Source: Pinibacter soli
GTDB taxonomy: Bacteria > Bacteroidota > Bacteroidia > Chitinophagales > Chitinophagaceae
DNA: 64,000 nucleotides
Reading direction: 5' to 3'
Assembly (NCBI RefSeq): GCF_029961145.1
Contig: NZ_JASBRG010000001.1
Span: 1 to 64,000, forward strand
Every line of letters starts with the position of its first letter. Position 1 is the first letter of the stretch. Made by a program: the position numbers and the translations under genes. Below, in pieces: positions 11,893 through 63,803 of the stretch. The notes below the pieces were generated by a model. That model saw only the letters and a program-made list of their open reading frames with translations, made no database searches and was not told the DNA's origin.

Positions 11893-12033
11893 GCTGTTCG
11901 ACATGTTCCGCAGGACATGTCGAAGAAAAGATAACAACGGATTTTTAAATCCCAAATCAACCGATTATTTGTACAGGATGTAACATCCATTTTATCTGTC
12001 GTTCGAGATGTCCTGCGGAACATCTCGAACAGC
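11893..12033. repeat. 141-bp multi-hairpin repeat element, copy 1
   Basis: The element contains four hairpins. H1 is 11897-11924 (TTCGACATGT stem, 8-base loop). H2 is 11939-11952. H3 is 11976-11988 (GGATGT-A-ACATCC). H4 is 12001-12030. H4 is nearly the reverse complement of H1, including the loop (TCCGCAGG against CCTGCGGA), so the whole unit can also fold into one long hairpin. GCTGTTCG and CGAACAGC mark its ends. A second copy in the same orientation is at 13401-13541. The layout resembles REPINs, doublets of inverted REP hairpins. Confidence 0.85.
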
Positions 12034-13400: not shown

Positions 13401-13541
13401 GCTCTTCGACATGTTCCGCAGGACATGTCGAAGAAATGATAACAAGGAATTTTTAATTCCTTAGTTCAACCGATTATTTGTACAGGATGTAACATCCATT
13501 TTATCGCTGTTCGAGATGTTCTGGGGAATATCTCGAACAGC
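13401..13541. repeat. 141-bp multi-hairpin repeat element, copy 2
   Basis: It has the same length, orientation and hairpin order as the copy at 11893-12033. H1 (13405-13432) and H3 (13485-13497) are identical to copy 1. H2 is changed in both arms so pairing is kept and extended (AAGGAATT with AATTCCTT, 13444-13462). H4 (13505-13542) has a longer stem (CGCTGTTCGAGAT type). The reading frame of the small membrane protein gene runs into it. Confidence 0.85.
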
Positions 13542-14262: not shown

Positions 14263-14344
14263 TTGAAAATTGAAAGTTGGCCTCCCTCAAACTTTCCACT
14301 CCATAATCTTTACACAATTTCAACTTTCAACTTTCAATTTTCAA
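14263..14344. repeat. Heptad-word inverted repeat spacer (AATTGAA type)
   Basis: The spacer next to the metG stop codon has arm TTGAAAATTGAAAGTTG (14263-14279), a perfect 17-bp inverted repeat of 14328-14344. Words repeat every 7 bases. The core between the arms (14280-14320) is unrelated sequence. Confidence 0.85.
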
Positions 14345-19744: not shown

Positions 19745-19760
19745 AGTCAAAGTTAAATAT

Positions 19761-19837
19761 TGAGAGTTGTTCGTTTTTTATTATTGGTAGTTGCCAGCTT
19801 TTATGGCGCTGCTTAAAATGAAATCTGACAACTCTCA
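19761..19837. repeat. Inverted repeat after the AraC gene
   Basis: TGAGAGTTGT (19761-19770) and ACAACTCTCA (19828-19837) are a perfect 10-bp inverted repeat in the AraC-fadN spacer, followed by TCAA-rich words. It is a shorter member of the spacer family. Confidence 0.55.
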
Positions 19838-19987
19838 ACTTCAATTCCTACCCTTCCACTTTCAAACCTCAACTTCGCAACGCTACTTTTCGTTTATTAA
19901 TTTTTGTTTGTTTTTTTCAAATCCTTTATTAAATTTATTTAATTTCGATAAATTAGTTGTTTAACTAACCTTTTTCAATTCCATTGC

Positions 19988-22406: not shown

Positions 22407-22436
22407 AATAATTGAATAACTGAATAACTGAATAAG
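22407..22436. repeat. Single octad-word arm (AATAACTG type)
   Basis: Four 8-base words (AATAATTG, AATAACTG twice, AATAAG) begin just after the fadN-like stop codon and run to the terminator. The same word occurs at 43993, 48017 and 49837. Confidence 0.65.
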
Positions 22437-27183: not shown

Positions 27184-27849
27184 ATGGGAGAAGCTTATCT
27201 TGATCATCAATCAGAATTGTTAACTATTCACTCAAGGTTATTTTTTTATGGTGATGCCGCAAGCGAAATTCTTACAATTCAGTTGGCACAAGACATTCAA
27301 CAACAGTGGAACGAGTTCCACAAAATAGTTGTTGTAAAGAAAAAGGTCTTCTCATTCGAGCTTCGCATCGAAGGCTTTTACAAACCCTATCTCACGCCTG
27401 AGGAAGTTTGGTACAATGATGACCCGAGGAATAATTATTTCCGCATTGAAGAATACTCCAACCAGGATATTTCATTTGTGGATGGCATCGGCAGCAACAC
27501 TGGTTATTTCAAGCTCGCCAACATACTTGATCATTCCACAACCGCTGCTCACGAGTATGGACATACGCTTGGTTTACTGCATCCCGTTCAATTGGATATA
27601 AGAGGAAAAGGCGCTCCGGGAATCATGTACCCCCGCGGCACCATTTGCGATCCGATGTATCAATGGAATCCAGCGGCCGCGCCGGCCACGCCGGGAGGAA
27701 CGCTAAATCCTGTTCATAGAAAAGTGCTTCAAAGTGATGTCGACAATCTTCAACTACCTAAACTTTCCTTTAGAGACGACAGAGCCATAGTGGGTGAATT
27801 TACGAGTGTCTTTCATGAAAAGCACGGAGGCGCAATTAAGAATGAATAA
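27184..27849 (+). CDS. Putative matrixin-like zinc metalloprotease
   Basis: A 221-residue protein with the long metzincin zinc motif HEYGHTLGLLH at about 122-132 and a following Met-turn candidate GIMYP at about 146-150. No signal peptide is visible from the ATG at 27184, which is odd for a metzincin; export by another route or a cytoplasmic role are both possible. The final codons (AIKNE then stop) lie in the first arm of the following inverted repeat. I do not recognise a closer family. Its neighbour is an ABC exporter gene pair on the same strand. Confidence 0.7.
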   Translation: MGEAYLDHQSELLTIHSRLFFYGDAASEILTIQLAQDIQQQWNEFHKIVVVKKKVFSFELRIEGFYKPYLTPEEVWYNDDPRNNYFRIEEYSNQDISFVDGIGSNTGYFKLANILDHSTTAAHEYGHTLGLLHPVQLDIRGKGAPGIMYPRGTICDPMYQWNPAAAPATPGGTLNPVHRKVLQSDVDNLQLPKLSFRDDRAIVGEFTSVFHEKHGGAIKNE

Positions 27850-27984
27850 TTAATAATGAATAATTAATAGGGCATCATTCTTTGTCAGTTACTCCACCTT
27901 CTGTAATATTCTTTTTGCTTTAAAAAATTATAGACTTACATTTAATCATGCTGCAACTCTATTAATTATTCATTATTAATTATT
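27845..27984. repeat. Inverted repeat spacer, 24-bp perfect arms (TAATTAATAA type)
   Basis: 27845-27868 is a perfect inverted repeat of 27961-27984. The first arm overlaps the stop codon of the protease gene and the second ends 12 bases before the GTG start of the ABC ATPase gene. The 92-base core is unrelated to the arms. Confidence 0.9.
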
Positions 27985-27996
27985 AATTAAAATACC

Positions 27997-28887
27997 GTGA
28001 TCCTTTCTATTCAAAACATTTCAAAATCGTATGGAAACATCAAGGCGTTGAATGGCGTTTCATTTGAAGTGCCACAAGGTGCTATATTTGGTGTACTGGG
28101 CCCAAATGGAAGTGGTAAAACTACTTTGTTAAGCATTGTTGTTGATGTACTTAAAGCAGACAATGGCAGCTTTCTGTGGTTCGGCCAGCCGGGCTCTCCG
28201 GATACACGCAAGAAAATTGGCACATTGCTGGAAACACCTAATTTCTATCATTATCTCTCTGCATTTAATAATTTGAAAATTACGAACAGCATCAGCAGCC
28301 GTGGTAATATTAGTGACATAAACCTTGTGCTGGAAAAAGTAAAGTTGCAGGAAAGAAAGGACAGCCGTTTCAGCACATACAGCCTTGGCATGAAACAAAG
28401 GCTTGCTATTGCAGGCGCATTGCTAGGATCACCACAAGTGCTGGTGCTTGACGAACCTACTAACGGGCTCGATCCTGTAGGTATTGCAGAAATAAGAGAT
28501 TTGATCAAAGAACTCAGCCTTGCGGGACATACCATTATCATGGCAAGCCATCTTTTGGACGAAGTGGAAAAAGTTTGTACCCATGTAGCCATTTTGAAAA
28601 AAGGAACATTGCTTATGACCGGAGCTGTAGATGATGTACTGATAGACAATGACATAGTTGAAATAAGCGCAAGCGACAACGATAGTTTAGTAAATATTTT
28701 ACGATCATATAACGGATATGATCAGGTTATTTTAGAAAAAGGTTTTGTGCAAATTCATTTGCCGAAAGGCTCTGCCCGCCCGGAGGAAATAAATGCATTT
28801 TGCTTTAGCAAAGGAATAACCCTGAATCATCTTGTTATTAAAAAGAAAAGACTCGAGGCGAAATTTTTTGAACTAACAAACAACTGA
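27997..28887 (+). CDS. ABC transporter ATP-binding protein
   Basis: A 296-residue ATPase with GTG as start codon. Walker A GPNGSGKTT at about 36-44, signature SLGMKQR near 129 and Walker B VLVLDEP near 148, followed by the switch His in MASHLLDEVE. The C-terminal 80 residues resemble the extension of multidrug/antibiotic ABC-2 type ATPases. It drives the integral membrane partner encoded 178 bases downstream. Substrate unknown. Confidence 0.93.
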   Translation: MILSIQNISKSYGNIKALNGVSFEVPQGAIFGVLGPNGSGKTTLLSIVVDVLKADNGSFLWFGQPGSPDTRKKIGTLLETPNFYHYLSAFNNLKITNSISSRGNISDINLVLEKVKLQERKDSRFSTYSLGMKQRLAIAGALLGSPQVLVLDEPTNGLDPVGIAEIRDLIKELSLAGHTIIMASHLLDEVEKVCTHVAILKKGTLLMTGAVDDVLIDNDIVEISASDNDSLVNILRSYNGYDQVILEKGFVQIHLPKGSARPEEINAFCFSKGITLNHLVIKKKRLEAKFFELTNN

Positions 28888-28889
28888 AA

Positions 28890-29037
28890 AATTAAGAATT
28901 AGGAATTAAGAATTGTTGGTGATTGAAAGCTCTGCCACGAATGTAGCCTCCCGGATTTGCAAAAATTTTGAGTGTCACTATCTGTAATGAATGCTACACC
29001 GGACGAATTCTTAATTCTTAATTCCTAATTCTTAATT
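28890..29037. repeat. Inverted repeat spacer, 25-bp perfect arms (GAATTAG type)
   Basis: 28890-28914 is a perfect inverted repeat of 29013-29037, with 7-base words (AATTAAG, AATTAGG). It fills the space between the two subunit genes of one ABC transporter. The second arm is identical over 25 bases to 48094-48118 at the rsmH 3' end. Confidence 0.92.
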
Positions 29038-29065
29038 GAATTCCTAACCTCTAACAACCACACAT

Positions 29066-29881
29066 ATGTTGAATCTCATTAAAACAGAATGGCTGAAGAT
29101 CAAGAACTACCCTGCATTCTGGTGGATCATTTGTATCACGGCACTCTCTTACCCAGGCATTAACTATACCTTCCTTAGTATTTATCATAAGATCACTGCT
29201 CAGAATTCCATGCAGAGCCAAATTGTAAAAGCGTTGGTGGGTAATCCTTTTTCTTTCCCCGAAGCATGGCACACTGTTGCTTTTTTTTCATCGCTGTTTA
29301 TTTTCATCCCCGCCATTGTAGTGATCATGCTTATTACCAATGAGTACACTTACAAAACGAACCGTCAAAATATTATCGATGGTTGGAGCAGGCAACAGTT
29401 TATGTGGAGTAAATTCATTAGTGTAGTTATCATTACACTGATTGTTTCTGTTATTTATTTTGTTGTTAGTCTTATTATTGGTTCTACAAATACTGACAAC
29501 ATTACTGCCAGCAAGTGGGATCAATTTTATTATGTGCTGCTATTTGCCTTTCAAACATTTGCCCAACTTTCCATTGCTTTTTTGATCGGCTTACTTGTTC
29601 GCAAATCTTTTATTGCGCTTGCGATTTTCATTTTTTACTTTATCATTCTCGAACCAATATTAGTAGGTGTATTGAAATATAAAGCAAACGATATTGGTCG
29701 CTTTTTACCGCTTGAAATTTCCGATCGCCTGATTCCCATTCCCGCATTTATGGGAAAGATTGATGCAGAAACTTATAAGGCGTCACTCGCGGCCATTCAA
29801 TCGCATATCTTTTTAACGCTAATCGGATTGATGATCACGTGGAGTTTGAGTTTGTTTGTGTACATGAGACGTGATTTGTAA
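29066..29881 (+). CDS. ABC-2 type transporter permease
   Basis: A 271-residue integral membrane protein with about six helices: roughly 18-38, 72-95, 120-142, 158-180, 187-205 and 243-263. It starts with the 'MLNLIKTEWLKIKNYPAFW' type N-terminus usual for these subunits. It pairs with the ATPase encoded upstream to form an exporter. Substrate unknown. The stop codon abuts an inverted repeat. Confidence 0.88.
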   Translation: MLNLIKTEWLKIKNYPAFWWIICITALSYPGINYTFLSIYHKITAQNSMQSQIVKALVGNPFSFPEAWHTVAFFSSLFIFIPAIVVIMLITNEYTYKTNRQNIIDGWSRQQFMWSKFISVVIITLIVSVIYFVVSLIIGSTNTDNITASKWDQFYYVLLFAFQTFAQLSIAFLIGLLVRKSFIALAIFIFYFIILEPILVGVLKYKANDIGRFLPLEISDRLIPIPAFMGKIDAETYKASLAAIQSHIFLTLIGLMITWSLSLFVYMRRDL

Positions 29882-30017
29882 TTAATAATTAATAAAGAAT
29901 AATTAACAAGGCCACATTCAGTAACGAATGTGGCCTTATGGTTTCTTAAAATACCGGAACGTCTCTAACCAACTATGCTGCCACACCTATTAATTATTCT
30001 TTATTAATTATTAATTA
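29879..30017. repeat. Inverted repeat spacer, 28-bp perfect arms
   Basis: 29879-29906 is a perfect 28-bp inverted repeat of 29990-30017. The first arm includes the permease stop codon region and the second supplies the stop codon and last residues (LINN) of the convergent epimerase gene. A further perfect 12-bp hairpin is nested inside (29908-29937). Confidence 0.92.
29908..29937. terminator. Hairpin nested in the convergent spacer
   Basis: AAGGCCACATTC and GAATGTGGCCTT form a perfect 12-bp stem with a 6-base loop. Its position between convergent genes fits a terminator, but T tracts are weak on both sides. Confidence 0.6.
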
Positions 30018-32367: not shown

Positions 32368-34308
32368 TTAGTCGGGCTTGTTACCGTCCAAAAAAGTATT
32401 TATTGTGCTGATTTTTGCGTTATTATTTTCGTCAGACTTTACAGTGTAGTTGCTGTAAAAATTCTCTACCGGATTTGTGTTGTTGTAGAGTTCCAGGTTG
32501 CGGCGGATATATGCCGGCACAGTTTCGAACTCATTGTTTGGATCGGCTGAGTTTACGGTGAATGACAGATTACGTAGTTTCTGTATTCTCTCTGCCGCTC
32601 TGCGTCGCTGGTCCTCTGCTTCGTCCGGCATTGCCGGTTCCTCAACAAAAGAGTTATTGCTGGCAGTTGAATAAGTCTGTTCTGTACGCTGCACTTCCGC
32701 CGCAGGAACTTCATCCTTAATCACCAATTGCATGTCTAAAGAAGGTTCCTCTTCTTTTGGAACAGACGTTGCTTCCGGTTGCTGAGGGATGTTAGGCTTC
32801 GCGTAAGGCGCGGCCTGCGCTTTTGGCGCACCTTGGTCTGCCTTTGGTTCCGCATAAATATTGGATGGCTTGGCCAAGTATCCTCCAGACGCTGCAGACG
32901 CTGAAGAATTATTTTGAGTAGATTTCGACTGTTGTGATTGTGACAAGTTCTGTCCTGGCATCTCCGTTTTGGCTGGATGTGAATATACTAACTGAAAAAA
33001 CTCCGGACCATTTTCATCTGCCTCTTTTTTATCCACAGTATTTTTACTGTCGTTTTCGTCCGTAAAAAACACAACAGAACTCTTATTTGATGGGACTTCT
33101 ACGAGGGTTGGTTGAAGATCCTCTCTCAACTTTTCTGTTGGTTCTTCCGCCACAAAAGAGATGATACCGCTATCCATTTCATTTTCAGCCACTTCTTCCA
33201 CCCTCTCATCCAAGGGCAAGGAAAAAGACGTTGAAACGTATGCTTTCGGCTCTTCACGCTGAGGTTCGAGCTTCATGATGATCTTCTCTTCTCTTTTCGG
33301 TTGTTCCGGTATTTCCTTTTCTTCTGTTCTGTAAAAAGGATCTTTATATTCAAAACCAGTTGCAATCAGTGTGATGCCAATTTTTCTTTCCAGAGAATTG
33401 TCATAACCCAAACCAAGAATCACGTCCGTTTCTTCTCCGGCCTGGCTCAACAAATAATTCTGAATGATGTCCACTTCGTCCATTGTGAACTCGTGGTCAC
33501 CTTCTGCAGAGTTAATGTTGATCAATATCCATCTTGCACCTTTAATTTCATTGTCGTTCAGCAACGGAGAATTCAATGCTTCTTCAATTGCTTTCTGCGC
33601 ACGATTTTCACCTTCAACTGCAGCGTTACCCAAAATAGCAACACCACCGTTACGCATTACTGTGCATACGTCGGCAAAGTCAACGTTGATCTGCCCTGTA
33701 CTGTTGATCACGTCTGTGATACATTTTGCAGCTGTTGCCAAAACGTTGTCCGCTTTTGCGAATGCATCTTTCATTTTTAAGTTACCAAACTGATGACGCA
33801 ATTTATCATTGCTGATCACCAACAAAGTATCAACGTGGTTCTTCAAATGACTGATACCTTCTTCCGCCTGTAGTTGTCTTTTCTTTCCTTCGTAAGAGAA
33901 CGGTGTGGTTACTATGCCTACTGTCAATACACCGAGATCTTTACAGATCTTAGCAATGATAGGTGCCCCGCCTGTTCCTGTACCTCCGCCCATACCGGCA
34001 GTGATGAAGGCCATTTTGGTATTTACTTCCAATATGCGTTTTATCTCTTCTAAACTTTCTTCTGTTGCCTGCTTACCAATTTCAGGATTGGCGCCTGCAC
34101 CAAGCCCTTGAGTAAGATGCGGCCCCAGTTGTATTTTATTCGGCACATTGCTTTGTGAAATAGCCTGCGCATCAGTGTTACAAATAATAAAGTTCACGCC
34201 CTCAATACTTTGACTGAACATGTGATTAACAGCGTTGCTGCCACCACCACCCACACCTATCACCTTTAAGATAGATGATTTTTCCTTCGGTAGATCAAAG
34301 TGAATCAT
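32368..34308 (-). CDS. ftsZ: Cell division GTPase FtsZ with long C-terminal tail
   Basis: The tubulin-like GTPase forms the Z ring. The GTP-binding signature GGGTGTG is at about 108, after 'GVGGGGSNAVNHM' near residue 19. The globular core ends at about 325. The remaining 320 residues are an unusually long low-complexity tail rich in Pro, Gln and Glu. They end in conserved-looking segments ('AAERIQKLRNLSF', 'ETVPAYIRRNLELYNN') that probably bind membrane anchors such as FtsA. Long tails are usual in Bacteroidetes but this one roughly doubles the size of E. coli FtsZ. Last gene of the cluster. Confidence 0.97.
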   Translation of the reverse strand: MIHFDLPKEKSSILKVIGVGGGGSNAVNHMFSQSIEGVNFIICNTDAQAISQSNVPNKIQLGPHLTQGLGAGANPEIGKQATEESLEEIKRILEVNTKMAFITAGMGGGTGTGGAPIIAKICKDLGVLTVGIVTTPFSYEGKKRQLQAEEGISHLKNHVDTLLVISNDKLRHQFGNLKMKDAFAKADNVLATAAKCITDVINSTGQINVDFADVCTVMRNGGVAILGNAAVEGENRAQKAIEEALNSPLLNDNEIKGARWILININSAEGDHEFTMDEVDIIQNYLLSQAGEETDVILGLGYDNSLERKIGITLIATGFEYKDPFYRTEEKEIPEQPKREEKIIMKLEPQREEPKAYVSTSFSLPLDERVEEVAENEMDSGIISFVAEEPTEKLREDLQPTLVEVPSNKSSVVFFTDENDSKNTVDKKEADENGPEFFQLVYSHPAKTEMPGQNLSQSQQSKSTQNNSSASAASGGYLAKPSNIYAEPKADQGAPKAQAAPYAKPNIPQQPEATSVPKEEEPSLDMQLVIKDEVPAAEVQRTEQTYSTASNNSFVEEPAMPDEAEDQRRRAAERIQKLRNLSFTVNSADPNNEFETVPAYIRRNLELYNNTNPVENFYSNYTVKSDENNNAKISTINTFLDGNKPD

Positions 34309-34377
34309 AATTAATAAATTTCGCCAACACCGTAAATGCCGGCTGTGAATAAAATGGTTAGTTAGTATGAAACCCAG

Positions 34378-34461
34378 TTGTAAGTTTGGAGTTTTAAGTT
34401 ATAAGTGTTGGAAATGAACGAGCCAAAACTTATAACTTACTACTTCTAACTTAAAACTCTA
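34378..34461. repeat. Heptad-word spacer between ftsA and ftsZ (TAAGTTT type)
   Basis: First arm words TAAGTTT, GGAGTTT, TAAGTTA (34381 on); second arm ACTTATA, ACTTACT, ACTTCTA, ACTTAAA, ACTC. The second arm equals the inverse of the first with exactly two extra 7-base words inserted. The ftsA stop codon (34459-34461) lies at its end. Confidence 0.8.
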
Positions 34462-35856
34462 CAAAGCCTTATCTTCTTCTTCCTGGAACAGATCGATCAA
34501 ACTGTGTTTGAATTTGCCCCAGATATCTTTGAATCCTGAATTGCGATTGTTCATTTTATCTTTCTGAATAACCTGCTCTTGCTGCGGCTCTTCTTCGATT
34601 ACGATAGGAGCTGCTTTCACCGCTTCCAGTTTTTTCAAATTATCAGGAACAGGAATTTTCTTGAAATCTTTCTCGAATACTTTCAGATTGTTCTCGTAAT
34701 CGTTGTATCCTTTTAAAATCAGGCCAAGACATGTTGCGTACATTGGTTTTGCCAATTCTTCAATATGACCCGGAGCAAGATGTTCTGTAGGATAACCAAT
34801 GCGAGTATTTACGCCGGTTACATATTCCGTTAACTGAATTAAATGTTTCAATTGAGAGCCACCACCTGTTAACACAATCCCGCCATTCAGCACTCTGCTA
34901 TCCATACCAACTTGTTTCAAGTGATAGGTAACAAAATCCATGATCTCACTCATACGTGCCTGTATGATGTTTGCAAGATTCTTCACGCTGATCTCTTTCG
35001 GTGGCATACCGCGCAAGCCAGGAATAGTAATGAACGCGTTTGCTTTTGCTTCGTTTGCCAAAGCGCTACCAAACTGCACTTTCATTTGCTCTGCCTGTGT
35101 TTTCAAAACACCTAAGCCAGTTTTAATATCATTGGTAATGTTTTCACCACCGAACGGTATTACTGCCGTGTGTCTTAAAATACCATCGCAGAACACAGCA
35201 AGGTCAGTTGTACCACCGCCGATGTCAACAATGGCAACACCAGCTTCCATATCTTCATAACCCATTACTGCAGCAGCAGATGCCAGTGGTTGCAACACCA
35301 GATCTTTGGTGTGCAATCCGCTTTTTTCAACCGCACGGTTGATATTGCGAATCGCGTTTTTATCACCAGTGATGATGTGGAAATTTGCACCCACTTTTAC
35401 GCCACCGTACCCAATTGGGTTTGGAATATTTTGAAAATTGTCTACCGTAAATTCCTGTGGTATCACATCAATGATCTGATCACCTGCAGGGATATACGTT
35501 TTATATTGGTCAGCTACCAACTGATCGATTTCACGCTGACTGATTTCTTCGTTGTTGTCATGGCGAACGATGTCTCCACGGGTTTGCAAACTTTTAATGT
35601 GATGTCCGGCAATACCTACATACACTTCATTGATCTCTAAATTAGGATTGCTGGCATAACAATTTTCAAGTGCGGTACGAATGGCTTTGATGGTTTCATC
35701 AATGTTCAATACCTGCCCGTGCTTAACGCCATTAGAGTTGGCACGTCCGAAACCAAGGATCTCGAGCTTACCGAACTCATTTTTTCTTCCCGCAATGGCA
35801 GCTATTTTGGTAGTACCAATGTCGAGGCCGACAATAATGGGTTGTTCGTTGTTCAT
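34459..35856 (-). CDS. ftsA: Cell division protein FtsA
   Basis: From the ATG at 35856 this is 465 residues; the family begins 'QPIIVGLDIGTTKIAAIAG', so the longer frame (35967) overlapping ftsQ is rejected. Actin-like ATPase motifs: GLDIGTTK near 9, VDIGGGTTDL near 208 and GGIVLTGGGSQL near 340. The C-terminal amphipathic helix ('WGKFKHSLIDLFQEEE') is the membrane-targeting sequence. It tethers FtsZ to the inner membrane. The start is 46 bases after ftsQ. Confidence 0.96.
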   Translation of the reverse strand: MNNEQPIIVGLDIGTTKIAAIAGRKNEFGKLEILGFGRANSNGVKHGQVLNIDETIKAIRTALENCYASNPNLEINEVYVGIAGHHIKSLQTRGDIVRHDNNEEISQREIDQLVADQYKTYIPAGDQIIDVIPQEFTVDNFQNIPNPIGYGGVKVGANFHIITGDKNAIRNINRAVEKSGLHTKDLVLQPLASAAAVMGYEDMEAGVAIVDIGGGTTDLAVFCDGILRHTAVIPFGGENITNDIKTGLGVLKTQAEQMKVQFGSALANEAKANAFITIPGLRGMPPKEISVKNLANIIQARMSEIMDFVTYHLKQVGMDSRVLNGGIVLTGGGSQLKHLIQLTEYVTGVNTRIGYPTEHLAPGHIEELAKPMYATCLGLILKGYNDYENNLKVFEKDFKKIPVPDNLKKLEAVKAAPIVIEEEPQQEQVIQKDKMNNRNSGFKDIWGKFKHSLIDLFQEEEDKAL

Positions 35857-35902
35857 AAATATATGTTTGTTTATAGTTGTTACGTTTTTGAATATGGTGT
35901 TG

Positions 35903-36973
35903 TTATCGTCGTTGTCTGTTACTTCTTGCGGCACCAGCCCTTGTTTGTGTTGAAGGCTTTGGTGCATTGCTTCTTACATTGCCCGCCGTTGGCGCAACCG
36001 CATTTACTGCTTGCCCTGCAGGTGCACCTGCATTGCTGTCTGCATCAATCAGTGATAGCGTTGAATCGCTCAAAGTTTCAGGTTGCATTTGCTTCACCGG
36101 CGTTGTTGTTGTTGAAACACTATCGCTTCTCATTTGTCTTGCTGCCAGCAACATTTGCTGAATGTTTCTCAGGGCCTGCAGCGAATCGATTCTGTTATCC
36201 GCGCCACGTCTCATTCCTATCACTTGTTTTTCGTACTGCACGTTCACCGATTCATATTTGTTCAGTCCTACTTTCGGTAAAATGTTCCTATAAAAAATCA
36301 TCAACCTGTCAAACTTCGCTTCCACATTTTCACCGTTACCAAATATGATGACGTGGCTACCAACTGTTGGTACCATTTCGAATGTTCGATTTGGTGTGAT
36401 ATCCACTTGTGCAATTTGCGCCGTCCAGAACGAGTCTTTGGCAATAAACAAACTCACTTGTTTGATGTATTGCATCAGCGTGCTGTCTGCCTTACTTAGT
36501 TTCACCGCATCAGTCGGAAACCCTGTAAACACTGGTAACTTCACACTCATTTTAGGACTCAATGGCAATTTCGCAAAAGCGCTGTCGATGTAATATGAAT
36601 TTCCGTTCACCGCAAAAATTCTCGCTATCGGCTCACGCTCTTCTACTTTTACGTGCAGTATCGCTTTGTTATCAAAGAACAGTTCGGCGTCTTTTACCCA
36701 CAGATTTTTTTCCAGCGTCTCTTCTAATTTCCTTAAATCAAAGCCTGTGATGGCTCTACCTTTCACGCTTCTGTTTGGTGAAACAACATTCATTACATCT
36801 GTCTTGTCTACGAAATAATATTCACCAACTCCTCTTATATCAATTTCAATGCCTTTGCATTGTTCGTTATTCTTTTTACCAATTGCAGCTACCAACAATA
36901 CCACAACGCCACTCGCCATTGCTACCCAAAGCATGGCAGTTAAAACGCGTTTGATATTTATTTTCTTCGCCAT
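35903..36973 (-). CDS. ftsQ: Cell division protein FtsQ
   Basis: From the ATG at 36973 this is 356 residues: short basic cytoplasmic tail (AKKINIKR), one membrane helix at about 11-34, a POTRA-like domain ('CKGIEIDIRGVGEYYFVDKT'), then the FtsQ beta domain. The last 60 residues are low complexity, rich in Ala, Thr and Arg, and end RSNRQRR. FtsQ links the early ring to FtsL and the septal synthase. It is separated from murC by a 270-base gap with three hairpins, unlike the tight packing elsewhere in the cluster. Confidence 0.9.
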   Translation of the reverse strand: MAKKINIKRVLTAMLWVAMASGVVVLLVAAIGKKNNEQCKGIEIDIRGVGEYYFVDKTDVMNVVSPNRSVKGRAITGFDLRKLEETLEKNLWVKDAELFFDNKAILHVKVEEREPIARIFAVNGNSYYIDSAFAKLPLSPKMSVKLPVFTGFPTDAVKLSKADSTLMQYIKQVSLFIAKDSFWTAQIAQVDITPNRTFEMVPTVGSHVIIFGNGENVEAKFDRLMIFYRNILPKVGLNKYESVNVQYEKQVIGMRRGADNRIDSLQALRNIQQMLLAARQMRSDSVSTTTTPVKQMQPETLSDSTLSLIDADSNAGAPAGQAVNAVAPTAGNVRSNAPKPSTQTRAGAARSNRQRR

Positions 36974-37070
36974 AAATCTTACCCCAAGCCTCTCCAAAAT
37001 GAGAGCAGTCTCTAAGGGCGTAAAAGACTTTATTTAGTTCTAAATATTATTTCCTGATCGCTTTTAACAC

Positions 37071-37177
37071 AGACAAGGCAATGCCTTGTCTCAACTTTGG
37101 TGTCCCGCCCAACAGTCATTTTTACAATTATGGTCGACAGTTGGACGGGTACCTGTTGCACAGCAGCCCACTGTGCA
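37071..37177. repeat. Three-hairpin block between murC and ftsQ
   Basis: Hairpin 1 is the 21-bp palindrome AGACAAGGCAATGCCTTGTC plus T (37071-37091). Hairpin 2 pairs 37104-37117 (CCCGCCCAACAGTC) with 37136-37149 (12 of 14). Hairpin 3 pairs TGCACAG (37057 block, 37157-37163) with CTGTGCA (37171-37177). It is the only long structured gap inside the division cluster and may carry a promoter or processing site for ftsQAZ. Hairpin 1 recurs, with one change, inside queA. Confidence 0.6.
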
Positions 37178-37188
37178 GAATATTTTTC

Positions 37189-37267
37189 AGGAACTAGGAA
37201 TTAGGAGTTAGGAACTAGAAAAACCTGTAGCGCTCATCTATTTCTTAATTTCTAATTCCTAATTCCT
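37189..37267. repeat. Heptad-word spacer at the murC 3' end (GGAATTA type)
   Basis: Arm 1 (37189-37220) reads GGAACTA, GGAATTA, GGAGTTA, GGAACTA; arm 2 (37243-37267) reads TTCTTAA, TTTCTAA, TTCCTAA, TTCCT. 37196-37206 pairs perfectly with 37257-37267. Arm 2 encodes the last residues (GIRN) and stop codon of murC. Confidence 0.8.
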
Positions 37268-38615
37268 TTCCTATAGGTTCCACCAGTGCATCAATATCTC
37301 CTGCACCTGCAGTAATGATTACCTTACCACGCGGATCGACTTCTGATGCCCATTTTAAAAGATCTTCTTTGCTTAGCACTTGCTTGTGCTGGTTCTTCAT
37401 TTTGTTCAAAATCATTTCACTGCTTACTCCCGGTATTGGTAATTCCCTTGCCGGATAAATCGGAAGCAGTATCACTTCATCAGCTATATCAAGACTTTCG
37501 CCAAATGCATCCTGCAGGTCGTTTGTTCTGCTGTATAAATGCGGTTGAAAAACAACCACACATTTTTTATCAGGAAACAAACTTTTCGCACCGGTAAGCA
37601 ATGCTCTTAACTCTTCCGGATGGTGCGCATAATCGTCTATCAAAATTGTATCGGCATCTTTTCTGATATACTCGAATCTCCTCTTCACTCCTTTGAAAGA
37701 CGCGATTGCTGCTTTAATTTTTTCTTTTTCTATTCCCAGTTCGTACGCTACAGTGATTGCCGCGATTGAATTCTCTACGTTGTGTTGTCCACCCATATGC
37801 AATGTCAATCCTTCAATTCTATCGCCGTTGATCACTACGTCAAATGAATAACTGCCGTTATGCATTTGAATATTTTCCGGATAAACATCTGCTTTGTTGT
37901 CGCTTACACTGTAGCGAAGTTGTTTATCCGTGTTAAAATCTTTTTCTCTTGGCAAACCGTATTTGCTTATCAGCAAACCGCCAATCTTGATCTTTTCACT
38001 GAACTGAACGAATGTGTCTTGCAACGCTTCTTCAGTTCCGTATATATCCAAATGGTCGGCATCCATGGATGTGATGATCGCCACATCAGGACTTAATCTC
38101 AAAAAGCTTCTGTCGTATTCGTCTGCTTCTATCACACACACATTTCTTTGGTTGCTCCAAAAGTTTGTATTGTAGTTTACAGAAATACCACCTAGAAAAG
38201 CATTACAACCATAACCGCTGTCCCGTAGCAAATGCGCGACCATTGTGGTGGTAGTTGTTTTGCCGTGCGTTCCTGCTATACAAATATTAAAAGAGCCTTC
38301 GCTGATGATCTGCAACACCTCACTTCTCTTTCTCACTTCGTAACCATGTTGCTGATAGTACACCAATTCTGCATGTCCCTTCGGAATGGCCGGTGTGTAC
38401 ACTACCAGTTGTACATCTTTCGGAATGAGGTTCACGTCTTCAGTATAGTGAACCGCCATGCCGCTTTCTTCCAGTGCCTTCGTCAATGGTGTTGCCGTTT
38501 TATCATATCCGCTTACTTCAATCTGCTGAGAATGAAAATATCTTGCTATTGCGCTCATTCCTATGCCGCCGATACCGATGAAGTAAATTTTCTTTATATC
38601 CCTTAGTTGAATCAT
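37245..38615 (-). CDS. murC: UDP-N-acetylmuramate-L-alanine ligase
   Basis: A 456-residue cytoplasmic Mur ligase adding L-Ala to UDP-MurNAc. It has the N-terminal Rossmann domain ('IYFIGIGGIGMSAIARYFHS'), ATP loop GTHGKTTTT near 114, central-domain 'EADEYDRSFLRLSPD' and the C-terminal 'DDYAHHPEELRALL' motif. Full family length. The extreme C-terminus comes from the neighbouring repeat arm. It follows murG by 82 bases. Confidence 0.97.
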   Translation of the reverse strand: MIQLRDIKKIYFIGIGGIGMSAIARYFHSQQIEVSGYDKTATPLTKALEESGMAVHYTEDVNLIPKDVQLVVYTPAIPKGHAELVYYQQHGYEVRKRSEVLQIISEGSFNICIAGTHGKTTTTTMVAHLLRDSGYGCNAFLGGISVNYNTNFWSNQRNVCVIEADEYDRSFLRLSPDVAIITSMDADHLDIYGTEEALQDTFVQFSEKIKIGGLLISKYGLPREKDFNTDKQLRYSVSDNKADVYPENIQMHNGSYSFDVVINGDRIEGLTLHMGGQHNVENSIAAITVAYELGIEKEKIKAAIASFKGVKRRFEYIRKDADTILIDDYAHHPEELRALLTGAKSLFPDKKCVVVFQPHLYSRTNDLQDAFGESLDIADEVILLPIYPARELPIPGVSSEMILNKMKNQHKQVLSKEDLLKWASEVDPRGKVIITAGAGDIDALVEPIGKELGIRN

Positions 38616-38629
38616 TTCATTTTTTTTGA

Positions 38630-38708
38630 ACGCAGATCTTCATGATTGTCAAGATTATTATGATTAGAAAAATCATATTCAATCATGATAATCTGCGTCA
38701 TCTGCGTT
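38630..38708. repeat. Inverted repeat at the murG 3' end (GAACGCAGAT type)
   Basis: GAACGCAGAT near 38630 and ATCTGCGTTC near 38699 are outer inverted arms, with CATGATT/AATCATG inner pairs. The right arm encodes the last two residues (RR) and stop codon of murG. It contains the GCAGAT core also seen near 49794 and 56501. Confidence 0.7.
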
Positions 38709-49620: not shown

Positions 49621-49836
49621 TTTTAATAGAAATTTTGATTTCATAATTTTTTCCACATGCCCAAAATGGGCTCAAACGCAATGCAGATAAGCGATTAAAG
49701 GGTGGGAAGTGACATTAAAAACACTAAAATGTGAATTACGTGTGAATATTCGGTGAATTACGGAGAGGAAATTGTGAATAACTGAAGAAGCGAGCACGCA
49801 GATGACGCTGATTAAACTGATTTACATGGATCTTTT
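49621..49836. other. mraZ-queA divergent region
   Basis: This should hold the dcw promoter and perhaps that of queA. 49792-49830 carries the dispersed GCACGCAGATGAC motif also present at 56497-56540. No gene seen. Confidence 0.4.
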
Positions 49837-49915
49837 AATAACTGAATAACCGAAAGCTTATGTTCAGTCAACCTCTTTAACTTTGACGATTCAGTTATTC
49901 AATTATTCAGTTATT
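49837..49915. repeat. Octad-word inverted repeat spacer before queA (AATAACTG type)
   Basis: AATAACTGAATAA (49837-49849) is a perfect 13-bp inverted repeat of 49903-49915; the second arm has four 8-base words. It ends 5 bases before the queA ATG, in a divergent promoter region, so it is not a terminator. Confidence 0.85.
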
Positions 49916-49920
49916 ACAGC

Positions 49921-52898: not shown

Positions 52899-53037
52899 AA
52901 ATTTGAAAATTTGAAGACTGTTTCCGTTTGGCTTATCAGCTTTGAACGAATCTCTTTGACTATTTGAGCGTTGGAATATTTCGGGAAGAAGTACCTGCAG
53001 CATTTTCAAATTTTCAAATCCTCAAATTTTCAAATTT
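52899..53037. repeat. Octad-word inverted repeat spacer (TTTGAAAA type)
   Basis: AAATTTGAAAATTTGA (52899-52914) is a perfect 16-bp inverted repeat of 53022-53037. A further TTTTCAAA block (53001-53019) is an extra partial second arm. It lies in the divergent region between the kinase and yqgE genes. Confidence 0.85.
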
Positions 53038-53077: not shown

Positions 53078-53629
53078 ATGATTGAACCCGCACCAGGCAT
53101 ATTATTAGTAGCCGATCCATTTTTAAAGGATCCTAACTTCATGCGAACAGTGGTGCTGTTATGCGAGCACCGTGATGAAGGCAGTTTTGGTTTTGTTATT
53201 AACCGTTTTTACGAATATAAGCTCAACGAATTGATCAATAATGCCGATGGCCTCGAAATACCCGTGTATTATGGCGGCCCGGTACAAATGGATACCATTC
53301 ATTTTCTCCATCAATATCCCAACGAGATCGAAGGCAGTATGATGGTAAGCGAAGGTATTTACTGGGGCGGCGATTTTGCCAGTGTGTTGGAACTATTGCG
53401 CAATGGAGAAATCAGTGCGAACAAGATCAGATTTTTCGTTGGCTATTCAGGCTGGGGAGAGGGTCAGCTGGACGGGGAGATTAAAGAGAAATCATGGCTC
53501 ACCGTTGAAGCCACGCGTAATATTGTGTTCCACAACGATACAAACGAAATCTGGAAAGATTCTCTGCGACATATGGGCGGCAAGTATGAGATAATGATCA
53601 ACTTTCCAATAGACCCGCAGTTAAATTGA
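53078..53629 (+). CDS. YqgE/AlgH (UPF0301) family protein
   Basis: A 183-residue cytoplasmic protein of the UPF0301 family: 'GILLVADPFLKDPNFMRTVV', 'LLCEHRDEGSFGFVINR', 'YYGGPVQ', 'FFVGYSGWGEGQLDGEI' and 'SWLTVEA'. The biochemical role of the family is not settled; AlgH in Pseudomonas was once linked to alginate regulation. Length is normal. Single gene, stop codon followed directly by a heptad spacer. Confidence 0.93.
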   Translation: MIEPAPGILLVADPFLKDPNFMRTVVLLCEHRDEGSFGFVINRFYEYKLNELINNADGLEIPVYYGGPVQMDTIHFLHQYPNEIEGSMMVSEGIYWGGDFASVLELLRNGEISANKIRFFVGYSGWGEGQLDGEIKEKSWLTVEATRNIVFHNDTNEIWKDSLRHMGGKYEIMINFPIDPQLN

Positions 53630-53632
53630 AAA

Positions 53633-53712
53633 TTGAAAGTTGAAAATTGAAAATGATGTTTTTTATGATGCACTAAGACACATAAGCATCATTTTCAATT
53701 TTCAACTTTCAA
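53633..53712. repeat. Heptad-word inverted repeat spacer, 26-bp perfect arms
   Basis: 53633-53658 is a perfect 26-bp inverted repeat of 53687-53712 (AATTGAA and AGTTGAA words, ending in AATGATG). It fills the gap between the convergent yqgE and NCS2 genes, with a 28-base core. It shares words with 14263-14344. Confidence 0.92.
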
Positions 53713-53719
53713 CTTTCAA

Positions 53720-55045
53720 TTATCTCAAAAACAGACTTATCAAAAACAACGCCGTCAACACATACATCACCGGTGAAATCTGGCGGTAACGGCCACTTAA
53801 TATTTTCAGGAACACATAGGAAAGCATTCCGAATACGATACCTTCTGCAATGCTGTAAGTATAAGGCATCATAACGATCGCGAGAAATGCCGGCACCGCT
53901 TCTGTGATGTCGGAGAAATCAATTTCTTTTACCGCACTCATCATCAACATTCCTACAATAATCAAAGCAGGAGCTGTTGCAGCAGCAGGAATGGCCATGA
54001 ATACCGGAGCAAAAAATAAAGAAAGAAAAAACATGCAGGCCACTGTAAACGCCGTTAAACCCGTTTTACCTCCTGAAGCTATACCGCTGGCGCTTTCAAC
54101 GTAAGCCGCTACCACACTGGTTCCCAGCAATGCACCGGAAGTAGTTCCAATAGCATCAGCCAGCAATGCTTTTTTGGCAACGGGAATTTTTCCGTCTTTA
54201 TCGAGGAGTCCCGCTTTGCTGCACAATCCGATCAACGTTCCTACAGTATCAAAAAGATTTACCATCAGGAGCGTAAATAAAATCACCAACATATCAACGG
54301 TAAAGATCTTATCGAACTCCAGTTTAAAAAATGTGGCAGAGATAGAAGGCGGTAAACTTATGAAATGACCATTTGCCGGAAGTTTGGTGATGCCTAACGG
54401 AATGCCGATAATTGCAGCAACAACGATTCCGATCAACAATGCGGCATTCACATTTTTTGACATGAACACTGCACTTACCAGCAGACCAATAACAGCAATG
54501 ATGGGCCCTGCAGACTTTACATCTCCCAGTTTTACAATAACGCCATCTAAATTATTGTGGCCGATATGCTGCATGCCCGTTTCCACAATGCCGGCATTTA
54601 CCATTCCTATTAACGCAATGAATAATCCAATGCCAACTGAAATTGCATGTTTCAAATTGATGGGAATACTGTTGATAATCGCTTCCCGCACTTTGAACAG
54701 TGAAAGCAGTATAAACAAAACGCCTTCGAGAAAAACGGCAGTGAGCGCAAATTGCCAGGTGTAGCCCATTCCCAATACAATGGTGTAGGCGAAAAATGCA
54801 TTTAAACCCATACCTGGTGCCAGTGCGATAGGAAGCTTTGCATACAAAGCCATTACCAATGTTCCTACTATTGCGGCTAATGCTGTTGATACAATTTGTG
54901 CTTCGAAAGGCATTCCGGCTTTTGAAAGAATTACTGGATTTACAACCAGTATGTAAGCCATGGTTGAAAAGGTAGTGAGCCCCGCAAGAACCTCTTTTTT
55001 TACAGTGGTATTGTTTTCTTTTAAACGGAAAAAGGATGCCAGCAT
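53720..55045 (-). CDS. NCS2 family purine permease (AzgA-like)
   Basis: From the ATG at 55045 this is 441 residues ('LASFFRLKENNTTVKKEVLA'), as in relatives. A longer frame (55141) would read through the spacer repeat. About 13 membrane segments; typical stretches are 'TMAYILVVNPVILSKAGMP', 'APGMGLNAFFAYTIV' and 'TSVVAAYVESASGIASGGKT'. Members import adenine, hypoxanthine or guanine with protons; the exact base is not deducible. It follows the MacB-like permease gene on the same strand. Confidence 0.93.
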   Translation of the reverse strand: MLASFFRLKENNTTVKKEVLAGLTTFSTMAYILVVNPVILSKAGMPFEAQIVSTALAAIVGTLVMALYAKLPIALAPGMGLNAFFAYTIVLGMGYTWQFALTAVFLEGVLFILLSLFKVREAIINSIPINLKHAISVGIGLFIALIGMVNAGIVETGMQHIGHNNLDGVIVKLGDVKSAGPIIAVIGLLVSAVFMSKNVNAALLIGIVVAAIIGIPLGITKLPANGHFISLPPSISATFFKLEFDKIFTVDMLVILFTLLMVNLFDTVGTLIGLCSKAGLLDKDGKIPVAKKALLADAIGTTSGALLGTSVVAAYVESASGIASGGKTGLTAFTVACMFFLSLFFAPVFMAIPAAATAPALIIVGMLMMSAVKEIDFSDITEAVPAFLAIVMMPYTYSIAEGIVFGMLSYVFLKILSGRYRQISPVMYVLTALFLISLFLR

Positions 55046-60088: not shown

Positions 60089-60190
60089 AAGTCAAAATTC
60101 AAAAGTCAAAATTCAAAAAACCTACACGATGCTTTGATAGAATTTTGATGTCAGCTCTTGATTTTTTACTTTTTACTTTTTAATTTTTAC
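60089..60190. repeat. Heptad-word spacer between nuoM and nuoN
   Basis: Arm 1 has GTCAAAA/TTCAAAA words (60090-60118); arm 2 has TTTTTAC/TTTTTAA words (60162-60190). The arms are inverted with the same 7-base spacing but C to A changes break the pairing, so this may be a decayed pair. Confidence 0.6.
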
Positions 60191-60194
60191 TTGT

Positions 60195-61699: not shown

Positions 61700-61792
61700 A
61701 TTTGAAAATTTGAAGATTTGAAAATTCTGACGATCGGACTTCTCTTTTTAACTCAACGTGTCGAGCTTAATAACATTTTCAAATTTTCAAAT
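61700..61792. repeat. Octad-word inverted repeat spacer between nuoL and nuoM
   Basis: ATTTGAAAATTTGAA (61700-61714) is a perfect 15-bp inverted repeat of 61778-61792, with a further ATTTTCAAATT copy at 61799-61809. It shares its word with 52899-53037. Confidence 0.85.
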
Positions 61793-61816
61793 CACCACAT
61801 TTTCAAATTGTCGTTG

Positions 61817-63703: not shown

Positions 63704-63717
63704 ACTATAAAAAGTCT

Positions 63718-63803
63718 AAAAAGAAAAAATTAAAAAGAAAAACAACTCGGCATTCTCGCCTGTCTGTACCTTTTATTTTTTACTTTTTATTTTTTAGTTT
63801 TTA
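63718..63803. repeat. A/T word spacer between nuoK and nuoL
   Basis: AAAAAGAAAAAATTAAAAAG (63718 on) faces TTTTATTTTTTACTTTTTAT (63771 on). Roughly inverted low-complexity arms with 7-8 base spacing; the second runs into the nuoK stop codon. Confidence 0.5.

Follow-up and report, generated by a model that had tools for sequence, protein, structure and literature searches.

Matched inverted arms built of 7–8 base words bound 336 of 999 intergenic spacers in the analysed genome (G000) and its congeners G001 and G002, a sample of 1.66 Mb. Such arms had been noticed in an initial annotation of the window, the whole 64-kb stretch of DNA that was analysed, and the observation is confirmed as real and genome-wide. 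Arm pairing lies far above chance, changes on one arm are mirrored on the other, loops are found inverted, one matched pair can be replaced by another, and a wobble signature of the RNA type is missing. The cassettes point to an active copying process at the DNA level rather than to an RNA signal. On balance, we lean towards the view that they are foldback-like intergenic DNA cassettes in which template switching or strand exchange, mediated by hairpins, homogenises the arms and flips the loops.

Spacers of 30–500 nt were scanned, shorter and longer ones being left out; in G000 the scan covered C1:1-464000. Gene calling followed a longest-ORF rule, which leaves 5' ends rough. Inverted repeats were scored +1/–2, and the cassette excess was counted at a score of at least 14 against dinucleotide shuffles. 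A best inverted repeat at this threshold occurs in 74 of 253 spacers of G000 (0.3 in shuffled spacers), in 88/246 of G001 (0.1) and in 62/221 of G002 (0.1). Although the arm words are mostly A/T rich, these shuffles refute chance inverted repeats in A/T-rich spacers, an explanation that we regard as virtually impossible. The 7–8 base periodicity is likewise borne out, with an arm autocorrelation of 0.541 at lag 7 (0.334 when shuffled), 0.437 at lag 8 and 0.539 at lag 14. The median loop measures 57 nt, and the G-rich strand lies on the left arm in 255 of 336 cassettes (36 balanced, 45 C-rich). As the initial annotation had claimed, armed spacers occur between divergent (44/161), convergent (81/154) and co-directional genes (211/684). 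Across all word families, the median distance of the outer arm edge is 5 nt to gene 3' ends and 39 nt to 5' ends. A GC-rich minority of pairs with GTAG ends resembles REP pairs. Among the sampled genera, arms are patchy, their density being high in G000–G002 and G022 and nil in G003, G004, G008, G009 and G019.

The cassettes of the window are given below, with strands for individual arms; loops and whole cassettes are unstranded.

27841–27870 (+): left arm of core spacer 1, TAATTAAT/AATGAAT words; overlaps the stop of ORF 27184–27849
27871–27958: loop of core spacer 1, 88 nt
27959–27988 (–): right arm of core spacer 1; arms 30 nt, 97% match
28890–28914 (+): left arm of core spacer 2, AATTAAG/AATTAGG heptamers
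29013–29037 (–): right arm of core spacer 2; arms 25 nt, 100%
29879–29906 (+): left arm of core spacer 3, TAATTAAT words; contains the stop codon of permease ORF 29066–29881
29907–29989: loop of core spacer 3; contains a 12-bp hairpin, 29908–29919/29926–29937
29990–30017 (–): right arm of core spacer 3; arms 28 nt, 100%
1132–1198: cassette, GAGTAAT/GAGTTTT words; arms 1132–1156/1174–1198
14263–14344: cassette, ATTGAAA words; folds as a 17-bp stem
19760–19838: weak cassette, GTTGAGA words; arms 19760–19770/19828–19838; score 11
34376–34458: cassette between the FtsA and FtsZ genes, AAGTTAT words; arms 34376–34411/34423–34458
37189–37267: cassette, ATTAGGA words; arms 37189–37219/37237–37267
38630–38698: short cassette, GCAGATNTTCATGATT words; score 13
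49836–49916: cassette in a divergent spacer, TAACTGAA words; arms 49836–49849/49903–49916
52899–53037: cassette in a divergent spacer, ATTTGAAA words; arms 52899–52914/53022–53037
53624–53721: cassette in a convergent spacer, ATTGAAA words; arms 53624–53658/53687–53721, 35 nt
60089–60192: cassette, AAAAGTC/AAAATTC words; imperfect arms
61700–61808: cassette, ATTTGAAA words; arms 61700–61726/61782–61808
63717–63803: cassette, AAAAAGA/AAAAAGT words; imperfect arms

The inverted arms that enclose the three core gaps are confirmed. The other loci of the initial annotation are present, their arms located by best ungapped match, 19761–19837 being weak. At 53633–53712 the arms are indeed paired but measure 35 nt instead of 26, and 60089 and 63718, described as single or mismatched arms, each have paired though imperfect arms. 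The cassette at 14263–14344 is absent from the spacer scan because its spacer exceeds 500 nt. A genome search with the loop of core spacer 1 matched its own place only. The right arm of the 37189–37267 cassette runs into the end of Mur ligase ORF 37245–38615.

Comparison with the congeners reveals different words at some of the syntenic spacers. At core spacer 1, both arms consist of AATTAGG/AATTAAG words in G001 and G002, and at core spacer 3 G001 has identical words and G002 has ATTGAAA words on both arms. The FtsA/FtsZ spacer of G001 carries GTTGAGA words on both arms, and the G001 counterpart of 49836–49916 carries GCACACGGATGACAC words, again on both. At 53624–53721 the arms are identical in type in both congeners and the loops differ. 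The 61700–61808 cassette is matched in G001, and its right side alone remains in G002. Spacers syntenic to the weak cassette at 19760–19838 are strongly armed in both congeners (scores 34 and 24).

Between G001 and G002, 136 syntenic spacers are armed in at least one species, spacers above 550 nt including margins being left out. Armed in one species only are 56, some of which contain a pair just below threshold. Among the 80 armed in both, 55 have the same words, 23 a different matched pair and two a one-arm difference; that both arms switch together is in part a consequence of requiring matched arms in both species. The claim that the structure is kept while the sequence drifts is upheld by these different word pairs at syntenic spacers (23/80). 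When the word family switches, the loop is replaced too in 22 of 23 cases, so these events are replacements and not in-place drift. Recognisable loop homology is missing from 40 of 80 armed spacers, compared with 8 of 142 unarmed ones (p=2.7e-14). In same-word cassettes, arm identity between congeners is 91.8%, a value biased upward by the selection of same-word pairs, as compared with 71.9% at fourfold sites (every second of 208 orthologues, proteins above 900 aa left out).

Around conserved loops, the arms change together. In 34 such cassettes, 44 of 913 columns are altered on both arms, where 8 are expected, an excess favoured by the requirement of detected arms in both species; 30 of the 44 are Watson-Crick in each species. 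At locus 149 of G001:C4 both arms are altered at the same positions to different letters, and hot word positions may contribute part of the excess. Locus 115 of G001:C4 shows a whole-word mirrored swap, in which AAGTAAAAAGTC has given way to AAGTCAAAAGTA in either arm; the loops of this locus (13 nt) match by eye but were scored as not homologous because they are short. At locus 70 the word type has changed around a homologous loop.

Moreover, loops are inverted in five of the 39 same-word cassettes with recognisable loops, as opposed to 0/134 forward-matching unarmed spacers (p=4.7e-4), a control that is favoured because a strong forward match blocks an inversion call. A loop between inverted repeats is thereby reversed between relatives, as in small inversions attributed to hairpins. 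Three inversions are clear (30/31, 22/26 and 42/50 aligned bases in reverse), and two are weaker, with 15/15 and 17/20 aligned bases over part of the loop. At locus k=60 of G001, 29/29 aligned bases match in each arm. When partners were exchanged among the 55 loci, a mean of 0.34 inversions resulted, and never five in 200 rounds. Two more candidates (k=161 and k=282) fall below the final inversion rule.

Of the explanations offered by the initial annotation, the best fit is homogenisation of the arms at the DNA level, given the mirrored arm changes around conserved loops and the loop inversions. The unit would comprise a word-array arm, a short loop and an inverted copy of the arm. During replication, the arms could fold together in single-stranded or cruciform DNA, and intramolecular template switching or strand exchange would copy one arm onto the other, sometimes leaving the loop inverted. 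Slippage by 7- or 8-base units would alter the words along one arm, and the other arm would mirror the change. Since a change on one arm is mirrored on its partner, sequence could drift while pairing persists. As the enzymatic route we infer template switching.

The main rival, possible but doubtful in our judgement, is a mobile element with several families. It would involve MITE- or REPIN-like miniature elements, each with a word-built terminal inverted repeat and a transposase acting in trans, whose loops diverge after insertion. The cassettes do possess terminal inverted repeats, as MITEs do. Their arms form dispersed families of stereotyped sequence, and arms of constant word order recur, such as GAAAATTGAAAGTTGAAAAT in 14 of 205 cassettes from the three genomes with orthologues counted apart. 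Arms that recur across loci require some dispersal, for which in-place copying alone is insufficient. Mobility would also account for the replacement of one matched pair by another at the same congener spacer, for the fixed arm polarity (255/336), for a common diverged layout seen by eye in TAATTAAT-family loops and for GC-rich REP-like pairs in the same niche. One whole cassette (k=138, G000/G002) occurs in one of the two species and is missing from the other. With 40 of 226 first-look candidates scored, three of 21 searched loops have near-full-length genomic relatives at 74–88%: k=261 at two places (74–77%), k=32 over 48 of its 53 nt (85%) and k=7, which is GC-rich (88%).

However, the other 18 of these 21 loops have no near-full-length relative among the scored candidates, and a comparison of 171 loops found no recurrence beyond short pieces. 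Transposition of arms together with their loop was set aside on these grounds and seems unlikely. Only 12 clean indels were found in 429 spacer comparisons, four with an inverted pair and one comprising a whole cassette. At these indels no consistent target-site duplication was seen by eye, TA/AATT ends included, and some ends show short direct matches that deletion would explain equally well. The mobile-element reading leaves loop inversion and mirrored in-place changes unexplained. The palindromic element family proposed in the initial annotation is partly right: it agrees with the dispersed, recurring arms and less well with the loops searched and with the indels, one of which comprises a whole cassette.

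Searches for driver genes covered Y1_Tnp and reverse transcriptase. PF01797 matches are found in 19 of 23 genomes; their counts do not track arm density, and a RAYT-type transposase was rejected as the driver. Of the 11 Y1_Tnp loci inspected within 250 nt, none is bracketed by a matching pair of word arms. In six, the best inverted pair is a GC-rich palindrome, lying across the gene in three and on one flank in three; a word-like cassette accompanies locus L169, and a single word array lies on one side of L166. A reverse transcriptase as arm writer was discarded, as no RVT_1 match was found in G000 or G001.

An RNA-level role, in which long hairpins serve for transcript termination, insulation or processing (RNase III sites, for instance) and are kept by selection on RNA pairing, is highly unlikely. 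Predicted RNA stems are very stable (z-scores of –2.8 to –10.2 for 11 window cassettes), convergent spacers are armed more often than the others (81/154 vs 255/845, p=1.5e-7), and the outer arm edge lies close to gene 3' ends (median 5 nt). Yet sense-strand arm mismatches in co-directional spacers comprise 124 G.U and 120 A.C (p=0.85), and without a G.U excess RNA pairing is not what is preserved. This missing wobble bias, with no added tolerance of G.U on the transcribed strand, counts against RNA-level selection. Divergent spacers are armed almost as often as co-directional ones (44/161 and 211/684), occurrence among genera is patchy, and several loops already contain short terminator-like hairpins, such as 29908–29937. 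The suggestion that RNA structures bound each cistron finds no support here. Import from relatives of spacers carrying other cassettes, by homologous recombination through the flanking genes, would explain switched cassettes with loops found nowhere else in the genome, but it only shifts the question to the donor and leaves inversions and mirrored changes around a kept loop unexplained; we consider it extremely unlikely.

Returning to hairpin-mediated copying, SbcCD is known to take part in palindrome processing, and quasipalindrome template switching copies between hairpin arms. SbcD scores over the cut-off in 4 of 23 sampled genomes and in 60 of 158 genomes of the order, and in none of the sampled arm-rich ones (G000–G002, G022 and G029). 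Armed spacers number 1 of 92 in the four SbcD genomes and 20 of 327 in 16 genera without SbcD (p=0.057, kinship not corrected); seven of these 16 show no arms either. A link between SbcD absence and arms is suggestive only, and loss of this hairpin nuclease may permit arm copying. A dedicated DNA-synthesis or recombination process that writes matched arrays at spacer ends and replaces their words by others, and has spread in lineages without the SbcCD nuclease, is a rather improbable extension. If true, the spacers of such a bacterial genome would be hairpins under continual reconstruction. Whether SbcCD has a part in shaping spacers is testable in genera with and without it.

To our knowledge, hairpin-mediated copying and inversion in bacteria have mostly been studied one site at a time, and template switching is known as a single-site mutation mechanism rather than a genome-wide spacer architecture. 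The 336 cassettes of three congeners offer a natural, replicated record of both processes. Foldback transposons, which are eukaryotic and far larger, have inverted ends of short tandem sub-repeats and variable middles; in our cassettes, by contrast, neither a transposase nor a consistent target duplication was found. Our non-exhaustive search of the literature on heptamer repeats, Chitinophaga repeats and loop inversion found no description of paired word arms.

Processing of quasipalindromes and palindromes, with hairpin formation in lagging-strand DNA, is treated in PMC7999016. REPINs are REP doublets moved by RAYT transposases, the doublet being the replicating unit, according to PMC3116915. 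Like the cassettes, they are intergenic inverted pairs with a less conserved spacer, compensatory changes and predicted single-stranded DNA hairpins, and both form an inverted doublet able to fold. Unlike REPs, described there as short palindromes tied to specific RAYTs, the arms are tandem 7–8-mer arrays of many classes per genome with mostly unique loops, and the inspected Y1_Tnp genes are not flanked by such arms on both sides. In chloroplast small inversions, repeats of 11–24 bp bound segments of 5–50 bp that flip between relatives (PMC12928735, citing Kim and Lee 2005). The likeness lies in the short inverted repeats around a flipping segment; word-built arm families, occupancy of about one third of spacers and word replacement set our cassettes apart from that description.

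The arms are also relevant to the heptamer repeats known from Bacteroidetes, Cyanobacteria and Beggiatoaceae, for which an explanation is lacking. PMC4679880 (MacGregor 2015) describes TAACTGA heptamer direct repeats, patchy across these groups; its main genome has 169 direct-repeat sets, for the most part close to start codons, and one indirect repeat, and the repeats are interpreted as possible post-transcriptional sites. The word TAACTGA, the intergenic location and the 7-base unit are shared with that account, whereas the cassettes differ in their inverted matched pairs, in the number of word families, in the concerted change of arms and in the inversion of loops. This suggests that heptamer repeats, at least here, represent one arm of a DNA hairpin and not protein-binding or translation signals. 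In place of direct sets close upstream of starts we find inverted pairs, though single TAACTGAA arrays occur; in the window, tandem direct arrays of this word lie at 22407, 43993, 48017 and 49837.

The three consecutive gaps singled out in the initial annotation are each enclosed by inverted arms of 7–8 base words, which together with the loop between them form a cassette:

27845–27984, core spacer 1: inverted arms of 30 nt (97%)
28890–29037, core spacer 2: inverted arms of 25 nt (100%)
29879–30017, core spacer 3: inverted arms of 28 nt (100%)

The remaining loci named there, 14263 included, were likewise found in the sequence. Dinucleotide shuffling upheld the arms as exceeding chance. In 464 kb of the 5.9 Mb genome holding the window (G000; the window is C1:1–64000), 74 of 253 spacers reached an inverted-repeat score (+1/−2) of at least 14 versus 0.3 when shuffled, and the congeners G002 and G001 gave 62 of 221 and 88 of 246 versus 0.1 each. 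An ABC permease query returned a match (L035) of 92% identity in ‘Chitinophagaceae bacterium 26-R-25’. Counting spacers with a score of at least 14 and a loop of at least 10, 336 of 999 are armed over five segments (1.66 Mb), with a median arm of 29 nt and a median loop of 57 nt.

Arm periodicity at 7 and 8 was confirmed, lag 7 being the best in 146 of 286 arms of at least 22 nt. Read from outer to inner end, 50% of arms of this length carry stop codons in all three frames, compared with 18% on the opposite strand and 21% in shuffles. The outer arm edge is at a median distance of 5 nt from the gene 3′ end (373 ends, of which 35% fall at the stop codon or within it) and of 39 nt from the gene 5′ end. 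Arms occur in 81 of 154 convergent, 44 of 161 divergent and 211 of 684 co-directional spacers. Word families are many (TAATTAAT, AATTAAG/AATTAGG, ATTGAAA, ATTTGAAA, TAACTGAA, AAAAGTC, GAGTAAT, AAGTTAT, GTTGTTA, GTTGAGA, GTAGCCA, GTACGAT, AACGCCT and the longer types GCAGATTTTCATGATT and GATGACACTGATT). A minority of cassettes are REP-pair-like, GC-rich palindromes with GTAG ends. The window holds two copies of a separate GC-rich palindrome family (ATGTTCCGCAGGACATGTCGAA and others), at 11893–12033 and 13403–13434; the loop of this family recurs at 88% identity. Nested cassettes were seen in G001 (spacers k=104 and k=284), the inner and enclosing pairs coming from different word families; at k=104 the 7-base register appears by eye to run unbroken across both. 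Within the window, cassettes at 34376, 37189 and 38630 lie between or beside the FtsZ, FtsA and Mur ligase genes (Pfam) of one cluster (32368–38615), so cassette turnover is tolerated even there.

Comparing G001 with G002 (genes 91.1% identical in nucleotides, fourfold sites 71.9%, from half of the orthologues) reveals how the arms change. Both species have arms at 80 syntenic spacers: the word family is unchanged at 55, another matched pair is present at 23 and a single arm differs at two; 56 more are armed in a single species. In core spacer 1, the words of both arms are of the TAATTAAT type in G000 and of the AATTAGG type in the two congeners. In core spacer 3, G000 and G001 carry TAATTAAT words on both arms, and G002 carries ATTGAAA words on both. 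The loop is non-homologous in 22 of the 23 switched cassettes, whereas unarmed spacers are homologous in 134 of 142. The loop at 29907–29989 and its syntenic counterparts retain a hairpin resembling a terminator (GCCACATTC..GAATGTGGC and variants), which in G002 outlasts the change of arm word family.

Compensatory arm change, for which a check had been proposed, was found. In 34 cassettes with conserved loops (913 columns; 78 left-arm and 93 right-arm differences), 44 columns differ on both arms versus 8 expected, and 30 of these are Watson–Crick in each species. At locus 70, where the loop is homologous, both arms went from AATTAAT words to AATTAAG/AATTAGG. At locus 115 of G001:C4, both arms show an exchange of position between two words (AAGTAAAAAGTC to AAGTCAAAAGTA); the loops there, 13 nt long and alike by eye, are too short for the homology threshold, which places this locus outside the 34. 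Locus 149 has identical positions altered to different letters on both arms, so hot positions contribute to the double changes, a caution for reading them as mirrored.

Moreover, loops invert. The 55 same-family cassettes comprise 34 forward-homologous, five inverted and 16 unrecognisable loops, whereas the unarmed spacers, with their 134 forward matches, yielded no inversions (Fisher p=4.7e-4). Shuffling loop partners among the 55 loci gave a mean of 0.34 inversions and a maximum of 3 in 200 rounds. Three inversions are clear (reverse-matching bases 30/31 at G001 k=60, 42/50 at k=255 and 22/26 at k=88); the others, loci 89 and 157 of G001:C4, have only 15 and 20 aligned columns. At k=60 each arm is identical between the two species across 29 aligned bases.

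Paired arms, flipped loops and mirrored word changes would be explained most simply if the arms folded on each other while the DNA is replicated and one arm was then copied from the other, or strands were exchanged; we lean slightly towards such a DNA-level hairpin origin. Cassettes would then work similarly to quasipalindrome template switching. They would also work similarly to the loop inversions of chloroplast genomes, where small inversions occur between inverted repeats of 11–24 bp (PMC12928735); hairpin formation by palindromes in lagging-strand DNA is described in PMC7999016. The hairpin account lacks an explanation for the arrival of arm families at new spacers and for family replacement with a new loop, so either some step of mobility or an import from relatives has to be added to it.

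Arms recur across loci, loops hardly: among 171 loops compared, only 15–30 nt pieces recur within a genome. For 18 of 21 loops searched, no near-full-length relative was found elsewhere in the genome among the 40 of 226 first-look candidates scored, a limit by which fainter relatives may be missed. The loop of k=261 (TAATTAAT) has two relatives (77% and 74%), that of k=32 (TAACTGAA) one (85% over 48 of 53 nt) and that of the GC-rich palindrome k=7 one (88%); one half of the core spacer 3 loop has two (81–83%). By eye, the loops of TAATTAAT cassettes all begin with GGGCNGCATTC and finish with ACACC. In 40 kb from each of 20 other genera, arms are patchy (G022 7/19, G029 4/20, G005 2/24, G006 2/22, others 0 or 1).

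SbcD is a component of a nuclease that cuts DNA hairpins. Of 23 genomes, only 4 have SbcD above the cut-off and none of these is arm-rich; 1 of 92 spacers is armed in SbcD genomes versus 20 of 327 in genera without it (p=0.057, uncorrected for kinship). This fits a permissive role of SbcD absence, but seven arm-free genera likewise have no SbcD, which counts against it. The suggestion that the cassettes are RNA structures was not borne out. Predicted RNA folding energies are strong, as expected of any DNA of this kind. Selection on RNA predicts more G.U than A.C among transcribed-strand mismatches; co-directional spacers gave 124 versus 120 (p=0.85), so pairing is kept at the DNA level or by a strand-indifferent process. 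As for candidate drivers, no reverse transcriptase match was found in G000 or G001, and RAYT-type (Y1_Tnp) genes had word arms on both sides in none of 11 loci inspected, with GC-rich palindromes at six. These palindromes (CCCTGAAAGGG, GCCCGAAGGGC and others) lie across the gene at L165, L153 and L148 and on one flank at L144, L150 and L151, and with the Y1_Tnp genes are apparently Bacteroidota REP systems.

The cassettes look like REPINs (PMC3116915) but differ from them in that word arms are not palindromic halves and do not flank the RAYT-type genes inspected. TAACTGA repeats of Beggiatoaceae, Cyanobacteria and Bacteroidetes share one word with the cassettes; PMC4679880 reports them as direct repeats that, in the principal genome of that study, are mostly close to start codons, whereas cassettes are inverted pairs. 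Literature searches on heptamer repeats, Chitinophaga repeats and loop inversion turned up no account of word arms that are paired and change together.

A 47-nt hairpin (CCCGCCTGCC...GGGCAGG) inside a word array shows clean presence/absence between congeners (spacers G001:C8 k=129 and G000 k=51) and is apparently a small insertion with no visible target duplication. In the spacer syntenic to G000 k=141, a TTTTTAC arm has 19 units in G001, one in G000 and two in G002, the expansion in G001 being a sign of slippage by word units.
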